Below, piece after piece: positions 1 to 41,116 of a stretch of 64,000 bases of DNA. Position 1 is the first letter of the stretch. Each line of letters starts with the position of its first letter. The stretch is from positions 1-64,000 of the forward strand of contig NZ_NESS01000009.1 of the NCBI RefSeq assembly GCF_002128425.1, in the 5' to 3' direction. The position numbers and the translations under genes are program-made. The notes beneath the pieces are model-generated. The model saw only the letters and a program-made list of their open reading frames with translations, did no database searches and was not told where the DNA came from. Source of the DNA: Gottfriedia acidiceleris. Lineage in GTDB: Bacteria > Bacillota > Bacilli > Bacillales > Bacillaceae_G.

Positions 1-440
1 AAATGTAGTTACTCATAAAGGGTTCATGAGTAAGTAAAAAAGCAAAAACGAGAAATGTAGTTACTCATAAAGGGTTCATGAGTAAGTAAAAAAGCAAAAA
101 CGAGAAACATACTTACTCATAAGAGGTTCATGAGTAAGTATAATAGCAAAAATCTAAAATGTAGTTACTCATTTCATGAATAAGTAAAAAAGCAAAAACG
201 AGAAATGTAGTTACTCATAAAGGGTTCATGAGTAAGTATAATAGCAAAAATCTAAAATGTAGTTACTCATAAAGGGTTCATGAGTAAGTATAATAGCAAA
301 AATCTAAAATGTAGTTACTCATAAGAAGTTCATGAGTAACTAAAAAAGCAAAAACGAGAAACATACTTACTTATAAGAGGTTCATGTGTAAGTAAATAAG
401 AAAAAAGCAGAAAACGTCTTACTCATAAAAGTTTCATCAG
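1..440. repeat. 52-bp tandem palindromic repeat array, copy 1 (nine units)
   Basis: Nine units each carry an inverted repeat, TTACTCAT and ATGAGTAA, around a 9-nt purine-rich loop (AAAGGGTTC or AAGAGGTTC). The right-arm TGAG motif, or its degenerate form, falls at 27, 79, 131, 177, 229, 281, 333, 385 and 437. All steps are 52 bp except one of 46, where a unit has lost loop bases. Linkers alternate between two related A-rich types. In two units the arms extend to about 12 bp. The array starts at the window edge and may continue leftward. Its last units are degenerate. There is no coding potential. A second array with the same period lies near 35.7 kb in inverted orientation. Function unknown. 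Confidence 0.9.
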
Positions 441-465
441 AAAAGGCTATATTTCAATACCCTGG

Positions 466-498
466 AAAAAGCTCTGTCTAAAAGAAACAGAGCTTTTT
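466..498 (-). terminator. Intrinsic terminator of the agmatinase-family gene
   Basis: A perfect 12-bp stem (AAAAAGCTCTGT with ACAGAGCTTTTT) and 9-nt loop lie just past the ureohydrolase stop codon. The T-run is present in both directions, so it may also stop transcription coming from the repeat array. Confidence 0.85.
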
Positions 499-501
499 AA
501 A

Positions 502-1446
502 TTACTTTGAGTTTTCTTTATTAATTTGCAATGTAGCTAAACTAGCAAATTCATGAACAAGAGTTGCAGCTAAAAGTGATGTAATTTGGGTTGGATCATA
601 TGATGGGAGTACTTCAACGATATCAAAGCCAATAAAATTGAAGCCAGTTAATGAACGAATCATTTTTAAGGTCTCCATACTATTGTATCCACCTACTTCA
701 AGTGTCCCAGTGCCTGGTGCACAAGATGGATCGACAAAATCAATATCAAAAGTTAGGAAACACGGAGTATCTCCAATAACTTCTTTCATTTGTTTTAAAA
801 TACCTTCAAAACCACGTTCATACATTTCCGGAGTAGTAATAACATTGTATCCAAGCTCATGGCTAGCATCTATATCTCCTGGATGATTCAACGTGCCTCG
901 AATACCTAATTGGAATACCTTGTTTGGAATTAGAAGACCTTCTTCGTGAGCTCGAATAAAAGGTGAACCATGCCAATATTTTTCATCGTAATATGTATCC
1001 CAAGTGTCTGTATGCGAATCAAAATGAATCATCGCAACAGGGCCATACTTTTTTGCAGCAGCTCGTAGGTTTGCTAAAGTGATTGAGTGGTCGCCACCTA
1101 AACCAATTGGAATAATATTACTATCCATTAATTCAAACATTGCGTCTTCCATCAGTTTATAGCTTCGATGAATATTATGAGGAATAACTGATACATCTCC
1201 AATATCGATCGCATTGCTGTCGTCAAATGGATATACCTTATGAATCGGATGATATGGGAATAAAGTCATAGAAGCTTGTCGGATTGCTTGTGGAGCAAAG
1301 CGTGCACCAACACGAAATGAAGCAGCAGTATCAAAAGGCATGCCAACGATTGCTAATTTCGCATTTTCTCTTGCAGAAGGTAGTCTCATAAATGTTCCAG
1401 TTGTACAAAACTCAGGTTTTACATCAGGGGAAAGTGGATATTTCAT
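502..1446 (-). CDS. Agmatinase/arginase-family ureohydrolase
   Basis: A 314-residue Mn-dependent ureohydrolase that hydrolyses a guanidino group to urea and an amine. All expected metal ligands are visible: His120 in GGDHS, Asp143, His145 and Asp147 in HFDSHTD, and Asp234 and Asp236 in FDIDFVDP. The length suits the family. The ATG at 1446 is chosen because a GGAG site lies 9 nt upstream; an in-frame TTG at 1461 overlaps that site. It is a single-gene unit with its own promoter, operator and terminator. No arginine decarboxylase gene is adjacent, so agmatine is the default guess. Guanidinobutyrate or another guanidino compound is equally possible from sequence alone. Confidence 0.85.
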   Translation of the reverse strand: MKYPLSPDVKPEFCTTGTFMRLPSARENAKLAIVGMPFDTAASFRVGARFAPQAIRQASMTLFPYHPIHKVYPFDDSNAIDIGDVSVIPHNIHRSYKLMEDAMFELMDSNIIPIGLGGDHSITLANLRAAAKKYGPVAMIHFDSHTDTWDTYYDEKYWHGSPFIRAHEEGLLIPNKVFQLGIRGTLNHPGDIDASHELGYNVITTPEMYERGFEGILKQMKEVIGDTPCFLTFDIDFVDPSCAPGTGTLEVGGYNSMETLKMIRSLTGFNFIGFDIVEVLPSYDPTQITSLLAATLVHEFASLATLQINKENSK

Positions 1447-1861: not shown

Positions 1862-1890
1862 AAAAACCACTATATGTGGTTTTTTATTTT
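1862..1890 (+). terminator. Intrinsic terminator of the SASP-like gene
   Basis: Stem AAAAACCAC and GTGGTTTTT with a 5-nt loop, then a T-rich tail, directly after the stop codon. Confidence 0.85.
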
Positions 1891-1953
1891 TTTTCGACTT
1901 GAAAATAAAAAAAGATGCAATCTATGCATCTCGAAAATTAAAGTATCACATAT

Positions 1954-2187
1954 TTAGTTGTAAAATAAATTTGCAATTAAAACTAGTAAAGTAGATAGGA
2001 TAATAAAAGTAATAATAAAATATCCTATAAATCTAATTGCTTTTGGCTTGTTTTCTAACTCTAAACTAGTCCTATTTAAAGGGCTCATACCATCTATTTT
2101 TTGCAGATCCTCTATCGGTGAATATATTTTGTGATCATCCAAGTAAATGTTGCCATCAGAGATTTCTGTTTCATGGGTTTTTTTCAA
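1954..2187 (-). CDS. Small single-pass membrane protein, unknown function
   Basis: A 77-residue protein with a charged N-terminal 50 residues and one C-terminal hydrophobic helix (about residues 51-74). This suggests a tail-anchored or single-span protein. It starts at TTG, preceded by AGGTGA at suitable spacing. I do not recognise the family. Its neighbours give no functional hint beyond the nearby SASP-like gene on the other strand. Confidence 0.6.
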   Translation of the reverse strand: MKKTHETEISDGNIYLDDHKIYSPIEDLQKIDGMSPLNRTSLELENKPKAIRFIGYFIITFIILSTLLVLIANLFYN

Positions 2188-3628: not shown

Positions 3629-5161
3629 ATGAGTTTTGGAAATGTATTATCGTTAAACGCACAAAGGCACCCAGATAAATTAGCATTAGTCTATCAAGAC
3701 CGTACATACACTTACATGGAATTCAATAAAATGGTTAATCGTTTTGCATGGGGATTACAGAAACTAGGTTTAAAAAAAGGTGAAAAACTTGCTCTTATGA
3801 TGGCAAACTCTGACTTGTTTGTGATTAGTTATTGTGCTGCTGTAAAAGTAGGTGCTGTTGTCGTCCCAATTAACTTCCGCCTTGTTTCACGAGAAGTTGA
3901 ATATATTTTAGAGCAGTCGGATAGTGTCATTGTAGTTTGTGATTCAGAACTAGAAAAAGTCGTTTTAGATGCTTCAAAGTCTTCATTGAAAGTAAGAAAT
4001 ATCATTACTGCTCCAACAACTTTATCGCCGAATTGTTTAAGCTTCTTTGATGTGTTTTCATCTATTGACGAAGATCCCCAGGTAGAGATTTCAGGAGACG
4101 ATGATTTTCATTTACTATATACTTCGGGTACAACCGGGCAACCAAAAGGTGCGCTTTTTGATTATAAACGAATTGAAAAGCTCATAAATGGATTGAGTGC
4201 GGTAATGGGGCAAAGCTGCCAGGATCGTTTTTTACATGTCGCTCCATTATTCCACTGTGCTCAGCTCGTAATTTATCTATTACCAGGGTTGTATTTAGGA
4301 ATGACAAATATTATTCATCGAGATTTTAATCCAGTAAACGTCTTAAATGATATAGAAAAATATAAGATCACTTTATTTTTTGGTGTTCCAACAATGTATA
4401 ACTATTTACAGCAAGTTCCAAATGCTGATCAATATGATCTTTCTTCAATAAAAAGATGTGCATACGGTGCAGCCCCTATGCCTCCTGAAATTTTAATGAA
4501 AAGTATGAATCTATTTAATACAAAACAATTTTTCAGCTTATGTGGATTAACAGAAGGGGGACCTACTGGCGTTTATCTTTCACCAGAAGATCATGAGCAC
4601 CATTTAGGAAAAACAGGAAAAACACCTTTACTTTATACAGTTATTAAAGTAGTCAATAAACAAGATGAAGATGTTTTACCAGGTGAAGTTGGGGAATTAA
4701 TTTTAAAAGGTGAAACAATTATGAAGGAATATTATAAAAAACCGAAAGAAACGGCAGAAACGATTAAAGATGGTTGGTTATATACAGGAGACTTAGCTGT
4801 AGTAGACGAAGAAGGGTATATTACATTAGTTGACCGTAGTAAGGATATGCTAATTTCCGGTGGTGAAAATATATATTCAGTTGAAATTGAAAACATTTTA
4901 TACGAACATCATTCTATTTTAGAAGCTGCGGTGATCGGTACGCCTGATTCTAAATGGGGAGAGGTCGTAACAGCAATTGTCGTATTAAAACCAGGACATC
5001 GTCTAACTTTAGAGGAAATCAAAGTTTTTTGCCGTGAAAGAATAGCAGGGTATAAGATTCCTAGAGTAGTTGAATTTATTGAGCAGCTACCTCGAAATGC
5101 ATCTGGGAAAGTTCAGAAGTATATTTTACGAGAAATGTATTGTGGCGCTAAGTCAAATTAG
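3629..5161 (+). CDS. AMP-forming acyl-CoA ligase (ANL superfamily)
   Basis: A 510-residue adenylate-forming enzyme that converts a carboxylic acid to its CoA thioester through an acyl-AMP. It has the P-loop TSGTTGQPKG (165-174), the YTGDLAVVDEEGYI core motif, the SGGENIYSVEIE hinge and the catalytic Lys494 in RNASGKVQ. The strong site GGGGGTAAG precedes the ATG. It lies 30 bp after the CaiB-family gene and ends at a shared bidirectional terminator. Medium- or long-chain fatty acids and aromatic acids are all plausible substrates; sequence alone does not decide. Confidence 0.85.
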   Translation: MSFGNVLSLNAQRHPDKLALVYQDRTYTYMEFNKMVNRFAWGLQKLGLKKGEKLALMMANSDLFVISYCAAVKVGAVVVPINFRLVSREVEYILEQSDSVIVVCDSELEKVVLDASKSSLKVRNIITAPTTLSPNCLSFFDVFSSIDEDPQVEISGDDDFHLLYTSGTTGQPKGALFDYKRIEKLINGLSAVMGQSCQDRFLHVAPLFHCAQLVIYLLPGLYLGMTNIIHRDFNPVNVLNDIEKYKITLFFGVPTMYNYLQQVPNADQYDLSSIKRCAYGAAPMPPEILMKSMNLFNTKQFFSLCGLTEGGPTGVYLSPEDHEHHLGKTGKTPLLYTVIKVVNKQDEDVLPGEVGELILKGETIMKEYYKKPKETAETIKDGWLYTGDLAVVDEEGYITLVDRSKDMLISGGENIYSVEIENILYEHHSILEAAVIGTPDSKWGEVVTAIVVLKPGHRLTLEEIKVFCRERIAGYKIPRVVEFIEQLPRNASGKVQKYILREMYCGAKSN

Positions 5162-26400: not shown

Positions 26401-26433
26401 AAATTTTCATATTATGGAAATTGTCTAAATAGA

Positions 26434-26480
26434 AAGAGGCTGTCTCATAAGGTTAAGGACTTTTGAGATAAGCCTTTTTT
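26434..26480 (+). terminator. Terminator of the cotS-cotSA operon
   Basis: AGGC and TCTCA segments pair with TGAGA and GCCT across an imperfect hairpin that ends in TTTTTT. Confidence 0.65.
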
Positions 26481-26500
26481 AGTTTGAAAATTGAAAGTCG

Positions 26501-26733
26501 ATACCATGAACGATTAACATGGCTAAATTAATGCTTGAGCCGGCTAAATTAACGCTAAAACTTGTGTAATGAATGCCAATACCATGAATGGTAAACATGG
26601 TTAATTAAAGCTTAAACCGCCTTAATCAACGCTCATCCTAGTGCAATGAATGACTATACCGTGAATGGAAAATCTGTCTTAAATAATGCTAAATGGCTCA
26701 ATTAATTTTCATGCCGACGCAATTAATCTTCAA
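26501..26733. repeat. Degenerate tandem repeat, three units of 77-78 bp
   Basis: Units open with ATACCATGAA, ATACCATGAA and ATACCGTGAA at 26501, 26579 and 26656. They share a scattered pattern of ATTAATGC/ATTAACGC, GGCT/CCGCC and ATGAATG motifs. No frame is open through the region. It fills most of the roughly 620-bp space between the cotSA terminator and galU. The rest of that gap (26734-27026) shows no clear feature. Confidence 0.6.
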
Positions 26734-27026
26734 ATCGCCTAATGAATGTCAGACCGAAGTATTTAATACCAAAACACGAATTATATAGTACAAAACTAGT
26801 TCAAATAACACGGAAAATCTCTCAAATATATTTATATTGGTGCATGATTTCCTATAAATATTTCCTTGTAATAGATTGTTCCAGTGTTCTTATTTAAAAA
26901 AACTGAAGGTCAAAAAAAGCTAGTTATTATGTTCTAAACTTTCTAAACATAATAGGTATATATGGTGACAAGTCCTCCTTAAATTACATATAAAGTAGAA
27001 TGAACAAAAGTTTGGAGGCAAGTTTA

Positions 27027-34490: not shown

Positions 34491-35606
34491 ATGAAAATTA
34501 ATAAAGTAATATTACGCCATATGAAGCTAGATTTATTGCATCCATTTACAACCAGCTTTGGTACTGAGTACGACCGTGAGTTTATTCTATTAGAAGCAAT
34601 AAGCGAAGACGGTATATCAGGTTGGGCTGAATCTGTTGCTATGCTTGATCCACTATATAATGAAGAAACTTTAAAAACAAACTGGCATATTCTAGAAGAT
34701 TATTTAATTCCAATCGTTTTAAATAATGATATTAACCATCCAGACGAACTTTCCGAAAAGTATTTTTCACATATTCGTGGCAACTATATGGCCAAAGCTG
34801 CAATTGAAGGCGCAATTTGGGATATGTATGCTAAACAAGAAAATATTTCACTTTCAACTGCATTAGGTGGAACTAAAAAGGAAATCGAAGTAGGAGTAAG
34901 CATTGGGATACAAGATTCAATCGATTCAACAATTAGAATTATCGAAAACCGACTAGCAGAAGGATATAAACGTTTTAAATTAAAAATTAAACCAGGCTGG
35001 GATATTGAACTAATCGATAAAGTACGAAAAGTGTATCCAACTATCCCTTTGATGGCGGATGCTAATTCAGCATACACATTATCTGATATGGACCAATTAA
35101 TTGCTTTAGATGATTATAATTTAATGATGATTGAACAACCACTTGCATACAACGATATAATCGATCACGCAGATTTACAAAAAAGAATGAAAACTCCAAT
35201 CTGTTTAGACGAGAGTATTCACTCACTAGAAGATGCTAGAAAAGCACTAAAACTAGGAAGCTGTAAAATTATTAATATTAAAATCGGTCGAGTTGGAGGA
35301 CTGACTCAATCAAGAAAGATACATGATCTATGCCAGGAAAATGGAATTCCTTTATGGTGTGGTGGAATGCTAGAATCAGGTATCGGAAGAGCGCATAATA
35401 TTGCGATCACTTCATTACCAAATTTCATTCTACCTGGTGACACAGCAGCATCTGCATTATACTGGGCTGAAGACATTATTGAACCAGAAGTAACCGTAGA
35501 AAATGGAATAATCACCGTACCAAACAAACCAGGCATCGGCTACGACCCACACATGCAAAATATTGAAAAATATACAATAGGTACGAAAGTTTATAATAGG
35601 AATTAA
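34491..35606 (+). CDS. N-succinylamino acid racemase / o-succinylbenzoate synthase-like enolase-superfamily enzyme
   Basis: 371 residues. The muconate-lactonising subgroup catalytic set is complete: Lys163 and Lys165 in KLK, metal ligands Asp190 (DAN), Glu215 (EQP) and Asp240 (DES), and Lys264 in NIKIGRVGG. Spacing matches characterised N-acylamino acid racemases. Without menaquinone genes nearby, and with GNAT and M20 partners, racemisation of N-succinyl amino acids is the best call. An o-succinylbenzoate synthase side activity is common in this group. A strong terminator follows. Confidence 0.88.
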
Positions 35607-35628
35607 CTGCAAGAAGTATATAAAGAGA

Positions 35629-35667
35629 AAACACAAACCTCGTTAAGTGTAGGTTTGTGTTTTTTTG
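35629..35667 (+). terminator. Terminator of the RpiR-M20-GNAT-racemase operon
   Basis: A perfect 12-bp stem AAACACAAACCT with AGGTTTGTGTTT, a 10-nt loop and a T-run. Confidence 0.93.
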
Positions 35668-35672
35668 AGTGT

Positions 35673-35961
35673 TGGCTCATGACCCCTTTATGAGTAAGTA
35701 AATTTAATGATTTTGGTTTTATACTTACTCATGACCTCTTTATGAGTAAGTAAAATTAATGATTTTGCTTTAATACTTACTCATAACCCCTTTATGAGTA
35801 AGTAAATTTAATGATTTTGGTTTTATACTTACTCATGACCTCTTTATGAGTAAGTAAATTTAATGATTTAGCATTAATACTTACTCATGACTCCTTTATG
35901 AGTAAGTAAATAACCTGATATATCATTAATACTTACTCATGCCCCCTTCATGAGTAAGCAA
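35673..35961. repeat. 52-bp tandem palindromic repeat array, copy 2 (six units, inverted)
   Basis: Six units. The right-arm TGAGTAAG begins at 35691, 35743, 35795, 35847, 35899 and 35951, an exact 52-bp step throughout. Inner units have perfect 11-bp arms, TACTTACTCAT and ATGAGTAAGTA, around a 9-nt pyrimidine-rich loop such as GACCTCTTT. The reverse complement of this loop is nearly the loop of array 1, so the arrays are in opposite orientation. Linkers are A/T-rich and similar between units. It lies between a terminator and the end of a minus-strand operon. Confidence 0.9.
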
Positions 35962-36020: not shown

Positions 36021-37202
36021 TTATTCCTTTTCCTTGCTCTTAATCTTTTCCTTTATTCTTTTCACTTGTTCTTCATATTTTTCAATATCATTTAATTCAC
36101 CTTTACCATAGCGCACAGAGTTATATGCATTGATTAGTTCATCTTCATTTAGTATTTGAATTCGCTCCAACCATTCTTTTAATGTTTCATTTTGGTTTCG
36201 ACCCATCTTGTATTTAGATGCATATTTTTGAAGTTGAAAGATTAGTTTTCTCATTTGCTCTGTTGGGGAGGAGTGTTTGAAAAGACGTCTTTTTTTACTA
36301 CTGTTCTCTGGTATTGCACTATATTCAATGTTGATTTCTTGTTGGAACGTATGTTTTTCATTACGTATAAATGCAAGTTTTCTTATGACTAGCCAAATTA
36401 CGATTAAAGTGATAATTAGAATTAATATCCATACCCAAGTAGGAATCGACTCTAAAATGTAATGGTGATTACGAATATTTTGTGGAAGTTTATCTTCAGC
36501 ACTTGAGTCGTGACTCAGCTTAATTTTTTTCTCTTTTATAGTGATATGATCTACATAGTTAAAGAGAGGAGTTCCTAAAAAACCAACTGCGCTAAATAAA
36601 CCGTCTAGTAATTTAAAAATCCCCCATTTTAGAAAAGGTAATATTAACGTAATGATACCAGTAAGCAGGGCTGCTATACTAATAGATACGATAATTCCTC
36701 GATAGTTTTTAACGGTTTGTGTAGTGGCTGTTTGTTGCAAGTATCTACCTAAACTAAATAGAATTGTAAAAATGATTATGATCCATAATATCAAGTTTGT
36801 ATGAGAGTATTGTGAAGTCCAGCCAAAAAAGAGGACTACCAAACTAGTTAAATAAAAAATGATTTGTAATTTATTCCTTTCTTCTATCCATAACGAAGTG
36901 TCTTTAAGAAAAGCCTCAAGACGAAAATATATAAAGCTAGCACATAAAATAGATGTAACTGAATTTAAACCAAGAGTATAACTAATTCCTCCAGAAATAA
37001 TGGCTGCTAAAAACAGAATAACTCGGGATACTTGAGACTTTCGTAATGAATAAAGTAAAAATAGAATTCCAATCATAAAAATACAAATGATCGCCAAAGT
37101 AGGTGGCAGTTGATTTTTTGATTCATATATGAATAAAACGAATAAATAGAGTAATAGATATTCTAATGAAAAAAAGTATGCAGAAATTAAACGTAAAATC
37201 AT
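36021..37202 (-). CDS. Multi-pass membrane protein, third gene of a MoxR-DUF58 operon
   Basis: About 393 residues. Roughly seven N-terminal hydrophobic helices are followed by an extracytoplasmic-type segment, another helix (WVWILILIITLIVIWLVI) and a charged cytoplasmic tail resembling a DUF4129-like C-terminus (EQMRKLIFQLQKYASKYK...NETLKEWLERI). Related third genes in MoxR-DUF58 operons encode transglutaminase-like proteins. Here the transglutaminase catalytic domain is absent, so the protein is a shortened form. ATG at 37202 has AAAGGA 7 nt upstream. Function unknown; probably envelope-related. Confidence 0.65.
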   Translation of the reverse strand: MILRLISAYFFSLEYLLLYLFVLFIYESKNQLPPTLAIICIFMIGILFLLYSLRKSQVSRVILFLAAIISGGISYTLGLNSVTSILCASFIYFRLEAFLKDTSLWIEERNKLQIIFYLTSLVVLFFGWTSQYSHTNLILWIIIIFTILFSLGRYLQQTATTQTVKNYRGIIVSISIAALLTGIITLILPFLKWGIFKLLDGLFSAVGFLGTPLFNYVDHITIKEKKIKLSHDSSAEDKLPQNIRNHHYILESIPTWVWILILIITLIVIWLVIRKLAFIRNEKHTFQQEINIEYSAIPENSSKKRRLFKHSSPTEQMRKLIFQLQKYASKYKMGRNQNETLKEWLERIQILNEDELINAYNSVRYGKGELNDIEKYEEQVKRIKEKIKSKEKE

Positions 37203-40917: not shown

Positions 40918-41116
40918 ATTATAGTTTTTAATACTCAATAAAAAGGTAAATCTTAAATGAAAAGGGTGATTCGTAAATAAAAAAGGCAAATCGCAATTAA
41001 AAATTAAAAATTTAGATAAAACAGTCTCAGAATTGTTTAAAACGAAGCAAAATCATAAAAAACGATCAAAAAAATATAAAAAAAGACTTAATCTAGATTT
41101 ATTCCCTGAATACGTA

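Follow-up and report, generated by a model that had tools for sequence, protein, structure and literature searches.

The first 64,000 bases of contig NZ_NESS01000009.1 of the soil bacterium Gottfriedia acidiceleris (GCF_002128425.1), called the window below, begin with a row of palindromic units recurring at 52-bp steps, and this row (array 1) raises a key question: are such arrays kept by selection as binding sites, or are they minisatellites in harmless intergenic DNA? The answer that we favour, with a probability of about 0.47, is that the arrays would be rows of DNA sites for a sequence-specific, probably dimeric putative protein, located behind gene terminators, in which slippage would vary the copy number and selection would keep the arms and the period.

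A palindromic repeat family of Gottfriedia

Each unit of array 1 is a near-palindrome, TTACTCAT-N9-ATGAGTAA, and TRF (tandem repeats finder) gave a period of 52 with 8.5 copies at 1-437. The original prediction for this DNA had described nine units at 52-bp steps with one step of 46 bp. The unit starts (Table 1) confirm this: seven steps measure 52 bp, and the single 46-bp step is due to unit 4, which reads TTACTCAT-TTC-ATGAATAA (165-183). The arms are perfect in six of the nine units. In the window, TTACTCAT occurs 30 times on both strands, against 3.9 expected, and the exact palindrome TTACTCATN9ATGAGTAA was found 38 times in the home genome (G000; 4.77 Mb, 45 contigs) and its reversed-pattern control not once, which excludes a chance origin. 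When up to two mismatches were allowed, the home genome yielded 135 units and the control 5.

Array 1 is cut by the end of the assembled sequence, as base 1 of the window is the start of contig C45, and the end of contig C16 bears near-identical units. Since the flanks of array 1 lie only 357 bp apart in a related locus (L047), with no array seen between them, the missing half is probably the C16 end, and the window probably understates the length of this array. In the home genome, at least six contig ends fall inside arrays (on C2, C4, C10 at both ends, C16 and C45); draft assemblies break in arrays, and array lengths are therefore underestimated.

Altogether, at least 25 arrays with 144 units, some of them halves split by contig ends, were examined in the home genome; the stretches were fetched from the matches listed, so that arrays of weak units may be missing, and a further array-like place on C44 adds at least one array to the 25. 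In the named genomes, 34 stretches gave 34 arrays, bringing the total to 59 arrays and 321 steps. Array ends with more than three arm mismatches were trimmed, groups lacking a second good unit were excluded, and of the overlapping loci L009 and L077 one enters each count.

How widely is the family distributed? The exact palindrome was present in 9 of 60 genomes: in the home genome itself, in 8 of the 12 other genomes of the genus and in none of the 47 from outside it. With up to two mismatches, the 13 Gottfriedia genomes contained 135, 132, 109, 88, 88, 74, 51, 40, 30, 26, 4, 2 and 0 units (controls 4-9), so that the motif exceeds the control in ten of them. A two-unit pattern with up to three mismatches was found in 9 of the 13 genomes and in none of six other genomes of the family. 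An exact scan of 84,980 species, one genome per species, with a two-unit 52-bp pattern returned 34 stretches, all in Gottfriedia luciferensis, G. acidiceleris and four strains filed as Bacillus sp., each of which has array loci in common with G. luciferensis at 81-97% identity. In these searches, the repeat family is confined to the genus Gottfriedia. A BLASTN search of 50,697 phage and 72,556 plasmid records with the low-complexity filter on gave no match, nor did a 60-bp, three-arm pattern in viral contigs, and on these empty searches a phage or plasmid origin was rejected.

The units are scattered along the chromosome, from 0.24 to 5.03 of 5.21 Mb in genome G002 and from 0.47 to 4.02 of 4.69 Mb in G011. 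Arrays are short and decayed in these two genomes and long and homogeneous in G000 and G006. The short decayed arrays of some species may reflect the loss of a maintaining factor.

Conservation of the arms and of the 52-bp step

In 281 oriented, array-weighted units, the arm positions carry 1.48-1.97 bits, with the exception of position 2 (0.86). A conserved GTTC forms the end of the loop, and conservation is lower in the spacer, which contains A-runs. Orientation was assigned by base composition and the loop, weakly so for L064, L023, L027 and L040. The global unit consensus is TTACTCATAAGGGGTTCATGAGTAAGTAAAAAAGCAAAAAGATGAAATTTAG. Among 58 array consensuses (covering 58 of the 59 arrays, built from units of 25 + 27 nt only, with steps outside 44-60 bp dropped), the arms differ at 0.068 of sites, the loops at 0.30 and the spacers at 0.371, whereas neighbouring spacers within an array differ at 0.137. 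Thus, of the conserved arms and degenerate linker originally proposed, the first holds, the arms being far more conserved than the spacers; the linker is repeated within array 1 and is degenerate only between arrays.

Both half-sites share the consensus YATGAGTWA, with S and TAAA beyond it, and the similarity extends to about TTYATGAGTWASTAAA. W is free at pair 2/24 and S at pair 0/26, where Watson-Crick pairing is lost in 31 and 45 of the 58 consensuses, respectively. Over the eight arm pairs of 299 distinct units, a set that contains a few chance matches (e.g., L084 528), we counted 46 double changes against 51.3 expected from shuffles; outside pair 2/24, 366 changes were one-sided and 23 double. 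Within the arms, G-U mismatches are as rare as A-C mismatches. The arms thus appear to be held by sequence, with changes that are mostly uncompensated and a modest tendency to symmetry, a pattern that seems to speak more for two half-sites (YATGAGTWA) recognised as DNA than for an RNA hairpin.

Another important question is whether the step itself is conserved. Exactly 52 bp separate the units in 276 of the 321 steps overall and in 102 of 119 in the home genome, where 52 is the modal step of 22 of the 25 arrays and the other three have only one or two steps. The 34 loci of the named genomes were found with a pattern demanding a 52-bp step and those of the home genome without any spacing demand; the home genome is therefore the basis of the claim for the period, supported by G002 and G011. 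In these two genomes, whose units were likewise found free of a spacing demand, 14 of 19 steps of 50-52 bp between the neighbours listed equal 52. Orthologous flanking noncoding DNA showed 294 indels and 1688 substitutions (ratio 0.174), and about 6 of the 27 spacer sites in the home arrays depart from the global consensus, which would give about 1.3 expected spacer indels per array if array history is nearly star-like and spacer substitutions are neutral. These counts support a 52-bp step conserved beyond what neutral indel rates predict. Comparison between congeners did not reveal periods that vary while arms and linkers decay equally, the outcome named beforehand as speaking for simple slippage.

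B-DNA has 10.4-10.5 bp per turn, so that 52 bp is about five turns. The suggestion that the step represents five helical turns survives in that 52 is close to this value and is conserved; phase as its cause is putative, and the steps that phase alone would allow are not enriched (42 bp once and 62 bp never among the 321).

Copy number, genomic position and the rival explanations

Orthologous loci allow the history of individual arrays to be followed. At the locus of array 2, the second array of the window, G000 has six units, G009 a single one at the same place behind the same terminator, and G007 a five-unit array of its own; remnants are found in G011, G005 and G010, no recognisable unit in G012, G003 and G006, and the terminator only in G002, with none in G008 and G001 and an unaligned flank in G004. 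At the C17 locus, the numbers are 16 in G000, about 9 in G007, 4-5 in G012, 3 in G006 and at least 2 in G003 (plus partials across a contig break), followed by 1-2 degenerate units in G009, G011, G005 and G010 and none in G002, G008, G001 and G004; where present, the units lie, by eye, between the two gene terminators. A five-unit array of L047 (3346-3578) has no counterpart at the corresponding site in the window (1885-1954). Spacers of orthologous arrays differ at 0.275 of sites (23 pairs, not independent of each other, with L023 and L040 unlike their orthologues), compared with 0.374 for the others (1517 pairs), a value as low being reached in 1 of 5000 permutations. Arm mismatches are more numerous in edge units (1.19, n = 100) than in internal units (0.39, n = 258), and spacer difference climbs with unit distance from 0.146 to about 0.17. 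On this comparative evidence, each array is inherited in place, and its growth or shrinkage comes about by local duplication.

Single mobile units were considered and rejected: most apparent singletons of G002 prove, by eye, to have a decayed unit some 52 bp away, and none gave a clean case of single-unit insertion or of target duplication. At empty sites, the flanks have diverged too far for a decision on target-site duplication. GC-rich stretches lie beside arrays or at empty sites in L088 (G004, such as GGAGCGGAAGG...), in L047 at about 3630-3720 and in L084 (G007); judged by eye, they are perhaps another interspersed element.

With regard to genes, simple open reading frame calls placed the home arrays in 12 tandem, 5 convergent and 2 divergent contexts, with 6 at contig edges. 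In 10 of the 12 tandem contexts, the array is closer to the 3' end of the upstream gene than to the start of the next, and arrays run with transcription in six cases and against it in six. A predicted terminator stands between the gene end and the array at 19 of 26 gene-3' sides (15 at -12 kcal/mol or below), a count that has no computed null, in which the weakest of the remaining predictions are doubtful and to which three more terminators visible by eye could be added. A role at the DNA level with a bound protein is suggested because the arms are sequence-specific, the step is conserved, there is no strand preference and the arrays lie mostly behind terminators. In each 52-bp unit, a sequence-specific DNA-binding protein, probably a dimer, would recognise two half-sites in inverted order, and the A-rich spacer, being of constant length, would bring successive sites to roughly one face of the helix. 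Slippage or unequal exchange would add and remove copies within each locus, and selection, or the need of the binding protein, would preserve arms and period. The bound array might act at gene ends, for example by insulating neighbouring transcription units or anchoring the chromosome.

Several points weigh against this reading. The binding protein, dimeric binding, helical phasing as the cause of the 52 bp and the gene-end role are inferred, none being directly observed, and integer turns and a merely fixed length are equally compatible with the step, so that the two are not separable. The conservation of the step depends on the assumptions given above for the indel figure. Three congeners (G001, G004 and G008) are at control level for the motif, and no single array is indispensable, because several array-rich species have no unit at the array-2 locus. 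The gene contexts do not stand out, the terminator count lacks its null, and sites behind genes also tolerate neutral insertions. Finally, outside pair 2/24, complementary double changes are in excess (15 of 23 against 8.6 expected, reached in 38 of 2000 shuffles), mainly through A-T to C-G at pair 3/23 (5 against 1.4 expected), and G011 supplies five more symmetric units, TTCCTCAT...ATGAGGAA, four at C1:2563167-2563346 and one at C1:1714354. The tendency to symmetry fits a two-fold symmetric protein site and a hairpin alike. The G011 variant is the clearest symmetric one, and the same change is seen in L027, L037 and L046.

The main rival is the neutrality of the whole, i.e., functionless or selfish minisatellites in which a slippage-prone palindromic 52-bp unit occupies harmless intergenic DNA and the likeness of the arms stems from inheritance and homogenisation within arrays. 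We regard it as unlikely, though it explains much: a copy number falling from 16 to 0 at one orthologous locus, the decayed edge units and the rise of spacer difference with distance, which are what slippage or unequal exchange predicts, the contig ends within arrays, and the hairpins predicted for four folded DNA strands (-5.5 to -8.6 kcal/mol), which could promote slippage. It does not account for the roughly fivefold stronger conservation of arms than of spacers between arrays or for a period that stays at 52 despite the expected indels, and hairpin-driven slippage would preserve complementarity, not a particular sequence. The original statement that slippage is not the only force is thus supported by arms and step, with the amendment that slippage or unequal exchange does operate; selection and slippage are therefore not alternatives.

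A bolder form of the protein-site reading is improbable, as we judge it. In chromosome-wide phased operator arrays, a genus-specific protein would bind 25-31 bp inverted repeats every five turns behind terminators at no fewer than 20 loci and, by covering the DNA on one side, would form a boundary that separates transcription units; array length would be an evolvable boundary strength.

Hairpin elements, either RNA hairpins at transcript ends (in termination or mRNA protection) or DNA hairpins and cruciforms, are a quite improbable alternative. Good RNA folds were obtained for single units (-8.3 to -16.1 kcal/mol, z -4.4 to -7.9; six strands), the arrays tend to adjoin gene 3' ends, and the complementary double changes and the symmetric G011 units are what a hairpin would leave. 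Yet a predicted terminator already precedes the array at most gene-3' sides, orientation is evenly divided, one-sided changes outnumber double ones 366:23 outside pair 2/24, pairing at 2/24 and 0/26 is lost in over half of the array consensuses, G-U mismatches are no commoner than A-C, and no Rfam family reaches its threshold. Selection for protein or RNA structure, as first suggested, accordingly retains the conservation of the arms in its support; RNA is the less supported of the two, and the excess of complementary changes leaves room for a hairpin.

Preference sites for gyrase or another topoisomerase at gene ends, as proposed for bacterial interspersed mosaic elements (BIMEs), would suit the position behind genes and the 5 of 19 placed arrays between convergent genes; the known preference of gyrase is less specific than strict 8-bp arms, and we consider this explanation very improbable. 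Least probable of all are repetitive extragenic palindromic (REP) or BIME-type sequences mobilised by a REP-associated tyrosine transposase (RAYT, a Y1 transposase), which would also be short, high-copy, extragenic, clustered palindromes and whose GTAG precedes some arms in array 1, given that Y1_Tnp hits in 8 of 13 genomes (E up to 0.001) do not track array number, being absent from G006 (132 units at up to two mismatches), G005 (88) and G002 (40) and numbering five in G004 with its 2 units (control 7), that the sole home-genome hit has an internal stop and other genomes have single hits, some broken, that G stands at the first position of the tag (-3) in only 10% (array-weighted), and that the units run head to tail.

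The features of the window are collected in Table 1. Ten of the 44 proteins flanking arrays were scanned with Pfam and comprise members of the arginase family and the enolase superfamily, MarR, TetR, two PH-domain proteins, a carbon-nitrogen hydrolase with an acetyltransferase domain, a ferritin-like protein and two without a hit; a common regulon of the flanking genes was rejected, as these ten belong to different families or lack a hit. A promoter and terminator scan of the array-2 region, with a terminator rule stricter than the one that gave 35628-35666, reported one promoter-like and zero terminator-like sites, not above shuffles.

Table 1 Arrays, units and neighbouring features in the window
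Feature	Positions	Strand	Evidence or remark
Array 1	1-443	+	nine 52-bp units, forward (G-rich loop, A-rich spacer); truncated by contig start
Unit 1	9-33	+	perfect arms
Unit 2	61-85	+	perfect arms
Unit 3	113-137	+	perfect arms; palindrome reaches 109-141 (12-nt arms)
Unit 4	165-183	+	6-bp loop deletion, source of the 46-bp step
Unit 5	211-235	+	perfect arms
Unit 6	263-287	+	perfect arms
Unit 7	315-339	+	perfect arms
Unit 8	367-391	+	2 arm mismatches
Unit 9	419-443	+	edge unit, 2 arm mismatches
Hairpin AAAAAGCTCTGT...ACAGAGCTTTTT	466-498	-	inverted repeat between gene and array 1; by eye terminator of the arginase-family gene; not flagged by the T-run rule
Arginase-family gene	502-1446	-	PF00491, E 2.5e-84; 3' end toward array 1
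Enolase-superfamily gene (MR_MLE)	34491-35606	+	PF13378 and PF02746; upstream of array 2
Predicted intrinsic terminator	35628-35666	+	-14.0 kcal/mol with T-run; between enolase-superfamily gene and array 2; stricter scan reports none
Array 2	35673-35957	-	six units, opposite orientation to array 1; all five steps 52 bp
Gene without Pfam hit	36021-37202	-	convergent to enolase-superfamily gene; array 2 between their 3' ends

Other repeats were seen as well. A second intergenic family has a step of 20-21 bp (two helical turns) and consists of TTTAATTGCAG and variants, at L079 510, L080 572, L082 495, L089 622 and L012 2036 (minus strand), with weaker occurrences at window 26401-26999 and L013 1676-2162. 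Of the 49 spacings of this motif of 60 bp or less, 26 are 20 or 21 bp, and intergenic autocorrelation gives z 3.6 at lag 21 and z 4.0 and 3.2 at lags 11 and 12. A tandem repeat of period 77 (2.2 copies) occupies window 26501-26672, in an intergenic region where a lag of 21 bp scores best, and short tandem repeats of about 20 bp occur at 40937-41003 and 41038-41081, where the intergenic region shows a lag of 19.

Comparison with known repeat systems

Are the arrays a known kind of repeat? The original prediction that no known repeat family accounts for them was upheld with respect to Rfam families and RAYT/REP systems. In Rfam, nothing reached the gathering score, and at E up to 1 bases 1-500 of the window gave two microRNA models far below their cut-offs. 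No published description of a 52-bp Gottfriedia repeat was found, judging by titles and abstract openings.

Clustered regularly interspaced short palindromic repeats (CRISPR) likewise combine palindromic repeats with fixed spacing, but the Gottfriedia spacers repeat within an array, and arrays occur at 20 loci or more. The ten of 44 flanking proteins scanned include no Cas protein. The mycobacterial interspersed repetitive units and variable-number tandem repeats (MIRU/VNTR), minisatellites of mycobacteria, are similarly dispersed tandem repeats with a variable copy number; they are not known to form palindromic arrays behind terminators. REP and BIME sequences, tagged with GTAG or CGTC, resemble the arrays as short extragenic palindromes with stems mostly of 6-9 bp that are sometimes clustered; the paper on them makes no use of the word Firmicutes (PMC3733652). 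In the Gottfriedia units, the tag does not stand beside the stem (positions -3 to 0).

The staphylococcal STAR (Staphylococcus aureus repeat) elements are closer. These and similar intergenic tandem repeats have been described without a known function, and the STAR core is a 14-bp GC-rich direct motif, T(G/A/T)TGTTG(G/T)GGCCC(C/A), with 40-44 bp spacers at the gapR locus (PMC3532100). Both families are intergenic, join a conserved short core to a recurring spacer in tandem units of about 50 nt, have a genus-level distribution and locus-specific spacers, and expand or contract in place, in Gottfriedia from 0 to 16 units at orthologous loci (PMC3532100). They differ in that the Gottfriedia core is a 25-31 bp AT-rich near-palindrome with a spacer of 27 nt and a step kept at 52, and TTACTCAT-N9-ATGAGTAA does not match the STAR core consensus as given there (PMC3532100).

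Here, STAR-like behaviour is thus combined with a symmetric core and an indel-resistant period, in 13 genomes whose array content runs from rich (G000, G006, G003, G012, G005 and G007) down to the level of the control (G001, G004 and G008). The Gottfriedia arrays make both a protein-binding role and helical spacing as a target of selection testable, and the contrast between array-rich and array-free congeners permits a gene-presence search for the putative binding protein. By analogy of behaviour, and not by sequence, the staphylococcal STAR element is the closest known kind, to which Gottfriedia adds a palindromic core and a stricter period.
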